The position numbers and the translations under genes are program-made. A stretch of DNA of 52,978 bases from the NCBI GenBank assembly GCA_015493215.1, contig WGDP01000056.1:1-52978 (forward strand), in the 5' to 3' direction. Shown here one piece after another: positions 37,176 to 41,715 of the stretch. This stretch comes from Bacteroidales bacterium. GTDB taxonomy: Bacteria > Bacteroidota > Bacteroidia > Bacteroidales > F082. The notes below the pieces were generated by a model. The model saw only the letters and a list, made by a program, of their open reading frames with translations, did not search any database and was not told the DNA's origin. Every line of letters starts with the position of its first letter. Position 1 is the first letter of the stretch.

Positions 37176-37311
37176 TTAAATTCCGGCATGTAACTAAATA
37201 AGGTATTTTGTAATAAATCCGAAGGATTATTCCGGCTAACTACCAATTCCTATTTTGACGTGACAGTGCTTTTGTTATGTACTAATATCTATCTTTTTAA
37301 ATATATCTTGT

Positions 37312-37319
37312 TACTTTTG
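37312..37319 (+). promoter_or_regulatory. -7 promoter element of the 12-heme cytochrome gene
   Basis: TACTTTTG, 16 bases before the ATG. A TTTTG at 37270-37274 is too far upstream to be a standard -33 element. Confidence 0.5.
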
Positions 37320-37335
37320 TAAAAAAAATAACAAG

Positions 37336-39747
37336 ATGAAAAAACTTTTCCTGCTACCTCTTATATTTTCCCTGTCGCAAATACTTTTTGGACAAACAAA
37401 CAACAGTGGCTTTCCGGCTCCTAAGCAAGGCTGTTTGTCGTGCCACAACGGCATTGAACCCATCAGGCAGCATCAAACAAAAATGATGAAGGAGATATAC
37501 AAGCTGGGCGCAAAAGCCGGCGATCCCAACGGATGTGTTGTTTGTCACGGAGGCAATCCCGAAGCAACCACCGCTCTGGCAGCACATACCGGCACACCGG
37601 ATTATTTTTTCAATCACAAAGGACCAAAAAATTTCTATCCCGACCCGGGCAGCTCATGGATAAATGAAAACACGTGCGGACAATGCCACACCGAACAGGT
37701 AAGTGCTCAAATGAACTCGTTAATGATGTCGGAGCAGGGAAAAATACAAGGTGCCTTGTGGAGTTTTGGTGCCATGGAAGGGTACAATCATACGGTTGGA
37801 AACTATGTAACCAAAAACCCCGACGACCCTCACGCACGCCTCGGCACCGAAGACTACCGGGCCTACATGCAGGCATTGCACGCTAAAAACCCACAGGTTT
37901 ATCCTGACAAGATGACCAAGCTTCCCGAAGCACCCACAGCCGACGAAGTACAACAAAACCCGCAACTGGCGGCATACACTTACCTGCGTCAGGAGTGTTT
38001 AAGGTGCCATACCGGTTCCAAAGGGCGCCAAAAACGAGGCGACTACCGCGGTATTGGCTGCTCATCGTGCCACATACCATACTCCAACAATGGGTTTTAC
38101 GAAGGCAACGACCCCACCATCGACAAAAACCAACCCGGACACTTTTTGGTTCACAGCATCCAGTCGGGCCGCAATGCCAAAGTTACCGTTCACGGCACTA
38201 CCTACTCGGGCGTACCGGTTGAAACCTGTACCACCTGCCACAACAGAGGCAAACGCATAGGCGTTTCCTATCAGGGGTTGATGGAAACCGCCTACTCCCC
38301 CACCTTCGACAAAGAGGGAAACAGCCAGCCCAAGCTACACACCAAACGCTACCTGCATTTAAAAGAGGACATCCACTATCAAAAGGGAATGCTCTGTCAG
38401 GATTGCCATACCACCAACGATTTGCATGGCGACGGATTTCTTTCGGGAACCACCCTTGCTCCGGTTGAAGTGGAGTGTCAGGACTGTCACGGCACAACCA
38501 AAAAATACCCTTGGGAGCTTCCTTTGGGATATGGTGATGAATACGACACCATCCCCGCTACGGGGAAAAGCCGCGGCCTCATTCAGCAGCTGGCCAAATA
38601 CCTTGAAAAGGGTACAACCTACGATAAAAAAGAGGGCTATTTGAGAACTGCAAGAGGCAATCCTTTTAAAAATGTGGTAAAAACCGGCGACAGTGTGCTG
38701 GTACATCTTGCCAGCGGGAAAGACCTTGTACTGCAACCCCTTAAAAAGCTTAAAGAAGATAACAAACTCAACATAGCTGCGCTGGCAGCCATGGATCAGA
38801 TAAATGTTCATACCGACCGCATGGAATGTTACAGCTGCCATGCCACCTGGGCACCACAATGTTACGGATGCCATGTTAAAATAGATTACAGCAAAGGCGT
38901 AAAACACACCGACTGGCTGGCTTCCGCCTCTGACCATGACGAACACGGACTTACCGCTTGTGCCCGTGGTGACTTAAGCAAACATAAAATTGAGGGGGTG
39001 GTTTCCGAAACCCGAAGCTATCTGCGTTGGGAAAATCCGCCCCTGTCGCAAAACGGCGAAGGACGCATATCGCCCACCATTCCGGGCTGCCAGACAACCA
39101 TTACCGTTATTGGAAAAGATGGCAAAGCACTGATTCAAAACCAAATATTTAAAATTCCGGGGGTGGAAGGTGCCGGAAAGGAAGGCCAGCTGGCCATCGA
39201 TATGTCGCCCGTGCAGCCACACACCATACAAAAAAAGGCTCGCGACTGCGAAGAGTGCCATGCCACCGCCAAAGCCATGGGCTACGGCATTGGAGGAGGA
39301 CTTATTTTTAGCGACCCTTCACAGGATTTTGAAGTGGACTTAATGACCGCAGACGGTAAAGTGCTACCATCCAAAACAACCACACAAAAACCCGGTATTA
39401 AGAATCTGAAAATGGATTGGTCGCGGTTTGTAACCGAAAAGGGGAAACAGCTGCAAACAGTGGGGCACCATTTTAAACTGTCAGGGCCATTAAACAATCA
39501 AACCCGTTCAAAACTCGACCGGCGGGGAGTCTGCCTCTCATGCCACAAAACCATCCCGGACCAGGATTTGGCCGTTTCGCTGATGAGCCATGTTGCAAAA
39601 TATGCAGGTGTAACAATCGACAACCACGAACACCAATCCATATTAAACAAACTGGTATTTCTCGGTGCATGGGGCCAGCTTTTACTGGGCATCATCGTTG
39701 TGCTTGGAGTGGTGTTTTTAAGCCTTAGGATTTTTGGGAAGAAATAA
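37336..39747 (+). CDS. Twelve-heme c-type cytochrome with C-terminal membrane anchor
   Basis: This 803-residue exported protein has a signal peptide (KKLFLLPLIFSLSQILFGQ). I count twelve CxxCH haem-binding motifs: CLSCH, CVVCH, CGQCH, CLRCH, CSSCH, CTTCH, CQDCH twice, CYSCH, CYGCH, CEECH and CLSCH. The first ten lie in the N-terminal two thirds. A stretch of about 130 residues without haem sites separates them from the last two. A single C-terminal helix (LGAWGQLLLGIIVVLGVVFLSL) ends in positive residues, so the haem domains face the periplasm from an inner-membrane anchor. I do not recognise a named reductase family. It could transfer electrons to an external acceptor or reduce a sulfur or nitrogen oxyanion. 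No partner quinol oxidase is adjacent. Confidence 0.85.
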   Translation: MKKLFLLPLIFSLSQILFGQTNNSGFPAPKQGCLSCHNGIEPIRQHQTKMMKEIYKLGAKAGDPNGCVVCHGGNPEATTALAAHTGTPDYFFNHKGPKNFYPDPGSSWINENTCGQCHTEQVSAQMNSLMMSEQGKIQGALWSFGAMEGYNHTVGNYVTKNPDDPHARLGTEDYRAYMQALHAKNPQVYPDKMTKLPEAPTADEVQQNPQLAAYTYLRQECLRCHTGSKGRQKRGDYRGIGCSSCHIPYSNNGFYEGNDPTIDKNQPGHFLVHSIQSGRNAKVTVHGTTYSGVPVETCTTCHNRGKRIGVSYQGLMETAYSPTFDKEGNSQPKLHTKRYLHLKEDIHYQKGMLCQDCHTTNDLHGDGFLSGTTLAPVEVECQDCHGTTKKYPWELPLGYGDEYDTIPATGKSRGLIQQLAKYLEKGTTYDKKEGYLRTARGNPFKNVVKTGDSVLVHLASGKDLVLQPLKKLKEDNKLNIAALAAMDQINVHTDRMECYSCHATWAPQCYGCHVKIDYSKGVKHTDWLASASDHDEHGLTACARGDLSKHKIEGVVSETRSYLRWENPPLSQNGEGRISPTIPGCQTTITVIGKDGKALIQNQIFKIPGVEGAGKEGQLAIDMSPVQPHTIQKKARDCEECHATAKAMGYGIGGGLIFSDPSQDFEVDLMTADGKVLPSKTTTQKPGIKNLKMDWSRFVTEKGKQLQTVGHHFKLSGPLNNQTRSKLDRRGVCLSCHKTIPDQDLAVSLMSHVAKYAGVTIDNHEHQSILNKLVFLGAWGQLLLGIIVVLGVVFLSLRIFGKK

Positions 39748-39752
39748 TACTG

Positions 39753-40730
39753 TTATTGCACGTTTGCCCTGCCTATTTCTTCGCCCATTTTAACATAGGT
39801 TTCCAATCCTCTTTTTGTGTTTTCAAGAAGGTCATTGTCAATATTAACGGCACCCTTTTTAAACAGTAAAACTATCGATGAGCCACCAAATTTAAAATAG
39901 CCTTTTTCCCTGCCTTTTACAGCTTTGGTTCCCTGATAAGTTTGCACAATACTACCCACCATGGTTGCACCTATTTCTGCCATAACCACATCGCCAAAAC
40001 GACGGTTGGCAAGGATAATGTATTCGCGTTTGTTTAACAGAAAAATATCAACCATGCTGTGCAGAGCAATGGGCGAAACCGAATAGAGTTCGCCGTTAAT
40101 TTTAACATCAGGCGAAATCGTGCCCCCCAACGGAAAGTGATAACGGTGATAATCGACCGGACAGAGGCGTAAAGAAATCAGGCTCCCGTCGCGGTATAAA
40201 TTTGCCAGCGAATCGTTGTTCAGAAAGGTATTTAAGTTAAACCTGTAACCTTTAATTATAAAGTCCTGATTGGAAATGTTTTGATAGGCCAGCACTCTTC
40301 CGTCGCCCGGCGAAACCACCACATTACTGTCGTTGTTTACCGGACGGGCATCCGGTTTGAGCTTGCGGATAAAAAAGTCGTTAAACGTTTCAAAATGTTG
40401 CTTCTGAGCAATACTGAGGTCAATATTGAAATCTTTAACAAACGGTTCAATTTTTTTTGCCGACCATTTTGTGTCCATTAGCCAACCGTAAAATTCCGAT
40501 ACGAACTTACGTTTTACAAGCGTTTGTAGCGCAACCTCACCCAAAGGGTTGTAATACAACCACTTTAGCCATGCCTCCCCGGCAATTTTTTCGGTTTTAA
40601 TTTCGTGGGTTTGCCGGTCAACGTACTTTACAGGTTGTATGTTAGGTGTGGGGTAAAAACCCAGCCCCAACAAAATTATCAGTAACGAAACCCAGATTAG
40701 AAGTTTAGTCGTTTTTTTTCGCTCCGGCAT
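39753..40730 (-). CDS. psd: Phosphatidylserine decarboxylase
   Basis: This 325-residue proenzyme makes phosphatidylethanolamine from phosphatidylserine. It has an N-terminal membrane helix (LLIWVSLLIILLGLGFYPT). Family motifs include NDFFIRKLKPDARPV, VVSPGDGRVLAY and the LCPVDYHRYHFPLGG metal/active-site segment. The autocleavage site is near residue 281, FKFGGSSIVLLF, where a serine becomes the pyruvoyl group (GSS rather than the usual GST). The length is that of the larger, PSD type II-like form. It follows the monoheme cytochrome gene by 5 bases on the same strand, so the two are probably co-transcribed. Confidence 0.9.
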   Translation of the reverse strand: MPERKKTTKLLIWVSLLIILLGLGFYPTPNIQPVKYVDRQTHEIKTEKIAGEAWLKWLYYNPLGEVALQTLVKRKFVSEFYGWLMDTKWSAKKIEPFVKDFNIDLSIAQKQHFETFNDFFIRKLKPDARPVNNDSNVVVSPGDGRVLAYQNISNQDFIIKGYRFNLNTFLNNDSLANLYRDGSLISLRLCPVDYHRYHFPLGGTISPDVKINGELYSVSPIALHSMVDIFLLNKREYIILANRRFGDVVMAEIGATMVGSIVQTYQGTKAVKGREKGYFKFGGSSIVLLFKKGAVNIDNDLLENTKRGLETYVKMGEEIGRANVQ

Positions 40731-40735
40731 ATTGT

Positions 40736-41518
40736 TTACTCTTCAAAATAATCATCAAATTTTGAGGCATGCACTTCAAGCAGTCCTTTGTATTTTTCAC
40801 CCTCTTCCATACTTTTGGCTTCCATCAACCGGTGCATGTTGTTTTCGAGGCCATGAAAAAAATTGTGAAGTTGTTCAAAGTCTTCTCCTTTGTTATTTTT
40901 ATCCAAAATAACCTTTTTAGCTTTGGCAAAAACCTCTTTTCCAAGAGCGTGGTAGTCAGCCAATTCCTTTCCTTTAAAACTATTTAGCAATTGGTTAACC
41001 TCATCCATTGTTTTTATGGTTTCAGTATCCACCTTCCATTTTTTGCCATCATTTAATGTGATGGCCGATTTTTCACTCATCATTTTATGATTACCATTTT
41101 CAGCCTGCATTTTTTTCATCATGGCAGGCTTATCCATTTCATGGTCAAAAATGTACGAGGCGATGGCTTCCAAATCTTCCTTTGGATAGGCAAGCGGGGG
41201 CATAATTTTAAATTTACGTACTGCTCCCGGCATTAAAACCCTTTCGGGTGAAGGATGATGCACCCAGCTAACAATGGCATTAACAAAATCTTGTTTAACA
41301 GGATAATTGGGTTTGTAATGACGCTTCACCATCATCATGGGAGGTGCCAACATTTTATCATGGCTTGTTACATTTGGATTGTGACAAACATAACAAAAGG
41401 TTTTCATTAACTGATAACCCTTTTCCTGCGAAGTTGTTTTATCCTGCTGCGCAGTTAATGCGGTTGTAAAAAGAAGAAAAAAAATAACCGGTAAATAGAA
41501 CTTTAAGCTTTGATTCAT
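40736..41518 (-). CDS. Exported monoheme cytochrome c-like protein
   Basis: I choose the ATG at 41518 (MNQSLKFYLP), which starts a signal peptide ending near TALTAQQ. The ORF-track start at 41560 would overlap the upstream gene. The 260-residue protein has one haem site, C42-Y-V-C-H46, followed by a methionine-rich PPMMMVKRHY segment. A further methionine lies in KIMPPLAYPKEDLEAIASYIFDHEM, a likely axial ligand region. The C-terminal 150 residues are helical and charged (four-helix cytochrome- or imelysin-like) and carry no second haem. It is periplasmic and probably a small electron carrier. Its link to phosphatidylserine decarboxylase is positional only. Confidence 0.75.
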   Translation of the reverse strand: MNQSLKFYLPVIFFLLFTTALTAQQDKTTSQEKGYQLMKTFCYVCHNPNVTSHDKMLAPPMMMVKRHYKPNYPVKQDFVNAIVSWVHHPSPERVLMPGAVRKFKIMPPLAYPKEDLEAIASYIFDHEMDKPAMMKKMQAENGNHKMMSEKSAITLNDGKKWKVDTETIKTMDEVNQLLNSFKGKELADYHALGKEVFAKAKKVILDKNNKGEDFEQLHNFFHGLENNMHRLMEAKSMEEGEKYKGLLEVHASKFDDYFEE

Positions 41519-41538
41519 AGCGTATTTTGATAATATGT

Positions 41539-41715
41539 TTACTGTGCCGCGTAATAGCATCTTTTGGGAGATACAATTTTATTTTCCACCTTTAGTTTTT
41601 TAATGGCTTTGTCAACTTCTTTTTTGTCGATGCCGCTCATTTGGGCAATTTCACCCGATTTTAAAGGTTTGTCGGTGTTTTTTAGGGTCTCTAATACTTT
41701 TTCTGTTGTTTCCAT
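41539..41715 (-). CDS. Small winged-helix DNA-binding protein
   Basis: This 58-residue protein starts at METTEKV (41715). The longer ORF start is rejected because it would run into the upstream hairpin. The sequence [44 protein letters not shown] fits a MarR/TrmB-like winged helix alone, with a recognition helix and no sensor domain. It ends 20 bases before the cytochrome start, on the same strand, so it may regulate that operon. No ligand or metal site is evident apart from one cysteine near the end. Confidence 0.72.

Follow-up and report, generated by a model that had tools for sequence, protein, structure and literature searches.

The closest described relative of the protein considered here is ExtM (GSU2935), which is encoded in the extHIJKLMNOPQS cluster of Geobacter. 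There ExtM is clustered with a Rieske protein (ExtO) and a cytochrome b (ExtP), an arrangement that others have read as a bc-type complex (PMC2825233, PMC5877670), and deletion of the neighboring extI lowers the reduction of selenite and tellurite (PMC5877670). A second point of comparison is the NrfH/NapC/CymA group, in which a protein with four or five hemes is held on one N-terminal membrane helix and oxidizes menaquinol. The gene described here lies in a window of 52,978 nucleotides (the whole stretch of DNA that was analyzed) from a Bacteroidales bacterium. Its product shares with ExtM the twelve hemes and homology over most of the profile, but it is 803 residues long against 599 profile positions, carries an added C-terminal anchor, and is adjoined by no gene for a Rieske protein, cytochrome b, ExtN, ExtKL or porin. 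Like the NrfH/NapC/CymA group it has a single membrane helix, and we propose that it may likewise oxidize menaquinol, whereas its helix is C-terminal and its hemes number twelve.

The open reading frame starts with ATG (table 1) and is under strong purifying selection, with a dN/dS of ∼0.04 against three near relatives, and we therefore count it as a working gene. The twelve CxxCH motifs reported in the sequence-only reading stand far above chance, given that 20,000 shuffled sequences of the same residues contained 0.04 motifs on average and 2 at most. The single membrane helix of that reading also holds for the C-terminus, although hydropathy identifies a second hydrophobic segment at the N-terminus, which resembles a signal peptide and is poorly conserved in sequence among orthologs. 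Upstream is a box that fits the established Bacteroidota-type −7 consensus, and TAnnTTTG-like boxes occur at the matching place before several Bacteroidales orthologs. An inverted repeat (ATCTTGTTA...TAACAAGAT, 37305–37337) spans this box and the start codon; it is intact only in the window and in its 97% identical relative, and we set it aside. The G+C content is 0.50 in the gene and 0.41 in the window, which could reflect the codons of a heme protein or a foreign origin.

Table 1. Coordinates of the twelve-heme cytochrome gene and its features within the window
Feature	Position	Strand	Basis or remark
Bacteroidota-type −7 promoter box, TACTTTTG	37312..37319	+	Direct reading
Gene for 12-heme, C-terminally anchored ExtM-type cytochrome, 803 aa	37336..39747	+	dN/dS ∼0.04
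Putative N-terminal signal peptide, residues ∼1–20	37336..37395	+	Hydrophobic segment
Heme 1, CLSCH (33–37)	37432..37446	+	Kept in 26/26 orthologs
Heme 2, CVVCH (67–71)	37534..37548	+	Ortholog alignment
Heme 3, CGQCH (114–118)	37675..37689	+	Ortholog alignment
Heme 4, CLRCH (221–225)	37996..38010	+	Missing in shortened Sulfurimonas versions L076–L078, L080
Heme 5, CSSCH (242–246)	38059..38073	+	Ortholog alignment
Heme 6, CTTCH (298–302)	38227..38241	+	Ortholog alignment
Heme 7, CQDCH (354–358), invariant D345/H347 before motif	38395..38409	+	Ortholog alignment
Heme 8, CQDCH (381–385)	38476..38490	+	Ortholog alignment
Heme 9, CYSCH (498–502)	38827..38841	+	Ortholog alignment
Heme 10, CYGCH (509–513)	38860..38874	+	Missing along with heme 4 in shortened versions
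Heme 11, CEECH (638–642)	39247..39261	+	Ortholog alignment
Heme 12, CLSCH (733–737), closest to membrane in sequence	39532..39546	+	Ortholog alignment
Conserved juxtamembrane module, residues 752–781, proposed quinol-facing site	39589..39678	+	Ortholog alignment; function inferred
C-terminal transmembrane helix, residues ∼782–800, then basic end	39679..39735	+	Hydropathy, AF2 helix

The protein had at first seemed to belong to no recognizable family. It does, however, match the NCBIfam profile for ExtM (NF040943) with an E value of 5.8e-69 and 232.9 bits, short of the equivalog cut-off of 800 bits, which no genome in our Bacteroidota sample passes. All twelve heme columns align with those of ExtM-like relatives that are linked to cytochrome b, among them the ones with the highest scores against ExtM. 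When the heme motifs are masked, the anchored and cytochrome-b-linked clades still align over 511 columns (99.7%, 4e-27), as against 0.1% for a reversed control. Judged from these comparisons, in which Geobacter ExtM itself is represented by its profile only, the protein is a divergent ExtM homolog, of the ExtM type but not an equivalog. Pfam returns generic multiheme matches only; that to the MtrC/MtrF domain PF22113 (52 bits, cut-off 30) is unspecific, because overlapping stretches also match the C554 and c3/c7 models. Annotation by Pfam alone would give an MtrC-like label and suggest extracellular electron transfer, whereas the protein differs from MtrC/MtrF in having no cysteine at the end of its signal and no neighboring MtrA/MtrB porin module. 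No octaheme model of the OTR, ONR or HAO type is among the Pfam and NCBIfam matches up to E = 1, nor was a close match to a characterized reductase found, the outcome that the sequence-only reading had set against itself.

ExtM kinship could imply that the protein serves extracellular electron transfer or the reduction of selenite and tellurite, as has been suggested for the ext cluster of Geobacter, and the phenotype of the neighboring extI would fit such a route. That phenotype belongs to extI and not to extM, however, and the cluster itself is absent: neither the window nor the loci of relatives hold the ext-type set of ExtO, ExtP, ExtN and the ExtI porin, ExtKL is likewise missing at the locus, and none of these is conserved beside orthologs. 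Anchoring by a C-terminal helix also speaks against a site in the outer membrane. We regard this route as quite improbable. The extracellular conduit offered in the sequence-only reading has no direct support other than a distant kinship to Ext proteins: the locus has neither a porin nor an outer-membrane partner, and relatives conserve none.

The earlier statement that the gene lacks an operon partner was borne out, and no partner or neighbor is conserved across the family in the Bacteroidales loci. The convergent neighbor is indeed a lipid gene, for phosphatidylserine decarboxylase (39753–40730, − strand), but, contrary to that reading, the locus does contain a redox gene, since one for a mono-heme cytochrome c (CYVCH; 40736–41560, − strand) adjoins the decarboxylase gene. 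Some loci of Sulfurimonas (L036, L041) have related small cytochromes near the twelve-heme gene. We rejected the mono-heme protein as an obligate partner, given that full-length matches were found in few carriers and in one non-carrier as well.

The cytochrome-b-linked relatives, found in Bacteroidota and Campylobacterota, have the same twelve-heme layout at ∼25–28% identity and are fused to, or encoded beside, cytochrome b, some with a Rieske protein; in others the system is split into a Rieske protein, cytochrome b, a twelve-heme protein and an eight-heme protein. They differ from the anchored proteins in lacking the C-terminal helix, and some lie near genes for a molybdopterin oxidoreductase and NrfD. 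The tree separates the two clades with a support of 100, and the anchored group, which is without a Rieske or cytochrome b partner, has a support of 98 when a soluble relative is left out. This relative, from Campylobacteraceae (L082:9482-11797), is a 771-residue twelve-heme protein without a membrane helix whose gene neighbors encode a two-component system and two thioredoxin-like proteins. The host genome itself encodes a cytochrome-b-linked paralog, a cytochrome b fused to a twelve-heme ExtM-like domain (L048:8077-10860, on G000:C268); it has one irregularly spaced heme motif, CGTANCH, and no adjoining Rieske gene.

The anchored protein has orthologs in the genus and family of the host, among Chitinophagaceae MAGs and in 57 of the 151 sampled Sulfurimonadaceae genomes. 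We found no named function for this protein, which is conserved in several Bacteroidota lineages and in over one-third of the Sulfurimonadaceae sampled. Two Sulfurimonadaceae sequences (L073 and L089) group with the Bacteroidales sequence L012, and this nesting among Bacteroidales suggests that the gene was transferred between phyla, although support for the wider joint is no higher than 89. One of the two (L089) is still at the usual nusB–mqnC locus. The order of genes in Sulfurimonadaceae is kdsA-ribH-nusB-[cyt]-(DUF302)-mqnC-M16, with the DUF302 gene often present before mqnC, and the linkage to mqnC, a gene of menaquinone synthesis, is suggestive, although the locus is mostly one of housekeeping genes.

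Sulfurimonadaceae are known sulfur oxidizers, and the frequency of the anchored gene among them raises the alternative that electrons flow in the opposite direction, from a periplasmic sulfur compound through the twelve-heme protein into the quinone pool or to cytochromes. Two cytochrome-b-linked relatives (L047, L058) lie near genes for a molybdopterin oxidoreductase, NrfD-type proteins, rhodaneses and sulfur transporters, which speaks for such a role. Yet no sulfur gene of this kind adjoins the anchored clade, and electron input does not predict the exclusion of NrfH that is described below; we consider it improbable.

The C-terminal part of the anchored protein has invariant residues close to the membrane. 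H752, D762, H766, K772, A778 and Q781 are invariant in 26 orthologs and W779 is present in 23 of them, unlike the membrane-spanning part, which is variable. A mere anchor would not need such residues. Several Sulfurimonadaceae encode shortened versions with 10 or 7 hemes (L076–L081) at the identical locus, and these keep the last heme, most of the juxtamembrane residues and the helix; the seven-heme version retains H752, D762, H766 and Q781. K772 is less constant, with N at its position in two shortened copies and R in a further one, which speaks against the quinol-facing role proposed below. In the ten-heme versions hemes 4 and 10 are missing together. This joint loss, with the last heme and the membrane module kept, suggests that the two hemes belong to one unit that the protein can do without.

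We tentatively favor the hypothesis, to which we give just short of an even chance, that this is a periplasmic electron-output protein of the inner membrane, linked to menaquinol and occupying a niche that overlaps with that of NrfHA. Its topology would place the ExtM-type cytochrome in the periplasm, held on the inner membrane by the C-terminal helix, and this anchor, with its invariant His-Asp-His-Lys-Gln stretch, would stand in for the missing cytochrome b and Rieske proteins. A quinol site is the simplest reading of that stretch, since the linkage of the relatives to cytochrome b presumably connects them to the quinone pool. Menaquinol would be oxidized at the juxtamembrane stretch, and its electrons would enter at heme 12, move from heme to heme and reach an acceptor in the periplasm, either a soluble partner or a substrate that takes them up at one of the hemes. 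Such a protein would be analogous to NrfH and a multiheme module for electron output joined in one polypeptide. If it is indeed linked to quinol without cytochrome b, it is an example of a bc-type subunit turned into an NrfH-like module that works on its own. The host genome also encodes an apparent alternative complex III (QrcABC/ActB-like matches) and a cbb3 oxidase.

The overlap with NrfHA is suggested by the distribution of NrfH-type genes, defined as PF03264 matches in frames of ∼200 residues. Among the 60 genomes sampled from the host family, such genes were found in none of the 17 carriers of the twelve-heme gene, a count that includes broken or partial copies, and in 28 of the 43 non-carriers. 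The survey covered this one family with the NapC/NrfH model only. Fisher's test gives 1.5e-6, and a genus-block permutation, which controls for kinship at the genus level only, gives 0.0036 (zero overlap in 0.36% of trials). Species of both kinds, carriers and NrfH-type holders, occur within genera g11 and g12. NrfH lies beside an NrfA with CxxCK in all five NrfH loci that were read. Mutual exclusion together with this pairing suggests that the twelve-heme protein and NrfHA overlap in function, although other differences in lifestyle could also produce the pattern. The twelve-heme protein itself has no PF03264 match in Pfam searches up to E = 1, nor was one found in the host genome. The exclusion is limited in that several carriers do encode a NapC-type domain, located in another protein with six hemes. 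It suggests a concrete class of candidate substrates, namely nitrogen oxides and possibly sulfite.

The same pattern would follow if the protein were a terminal reductase, with one of the hemes converting nitrite, hydroxylamine or NO (or sulfite), and took the place of NrfHA outright. NrfA is the best match (3e-5) when the family profile is searched against PDB sequences, the invariant D345/H347 stretch is paired with the NrfA motif GIHxxxGVSCADCH, and hemes 5–8 align collinearly with NrfA hemes 2–5. This similarity is motif-driven, however: the hhalign probability falls from 95.7% to 2% once the heme motifs are masked, and control proteins with 19 and 7 hemes give matches that are equally good or better. 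Because masking removes the signal and controls align as well, any equivalence with NrfHA would be, on present evidence, one of analogy and not of descent, with likeness confined to the partly collinear heme order and the exclusion of the partner gene. Furthermore, all twelve motifs are CxxCH and the CxxCK catalytic heme is absent, as it is in a few NrfAs (PMC12285233). Fourteen histidines outside the motifs are conserved or nearly so and suffice for twelve bis-His hemes, so that no vacant heme site is indicated. We consider a terminal reductase rather unlikely; the respiratory reductase of the sequence-only reading is possible, with indirect support from the exclusion of NrfH-type genes. The most specific version is a hitherto undescribed quinol:nitrite (or hydroxylamine/NO) oxidoreductase made of one polypeptide that carries twelve hemes. 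It would have arisen from an ExtM-type bc subunit, would take the place of NrfHA in some Bacteroidales and would be common to them and Sulfurimonas; in our view this version is distinctly unlikely.

Another alternative is electron donation to nitrous oxide reductase. In Sulfurimonadaceae nosZ is more common in carriers (31/57 vs. 26/94), among relatives the counts are 10/18 carriers versus 18/82, and the host encodes a tandem NosZ pair. The association within the host family is nevertheless not significant (p = 0.25), the two genes share no locus, and a strong nosZ match is absent from ∼45% of carriers; we therefore rejected NosZ as an obligate partner and hold a donor role to be highly improbable. 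The tandem pair (L108, on G000:C171) consists of divergent NosZ-like genes of 754 and 798 residues and is present both in this genome and in those of many relatives; the longer protein has a fused cytochrome c motif, and only one of the two passes the NosZ cut-off.

An AlphaFold2 model built with close orthologs only (mean pLDDT 39) was set aside. With distant relatives added, the mean pLDDT is 81 and the pTM 0.81, although the model is less reliable around heme 12 and in the linker that leads to the helix. A Foldseek search with this model against the PDB gave no match at E ≤0.001 (best E 2.5, query TM ∼0.04); as the search had no positive control, this argues only weakly for a new fold. Elsewhere in the host family, a conserved cluster (L117, L118, L120, L121, L125) encodes a 19-heme protein with a membrane domain, a 7-heme protein, a membrane protein of 202–206 residues, a 6-heme protein with a NapC-type domain, and small 4-heme and mono-heme proteins, and it appears to be an electron transfer system of its own.
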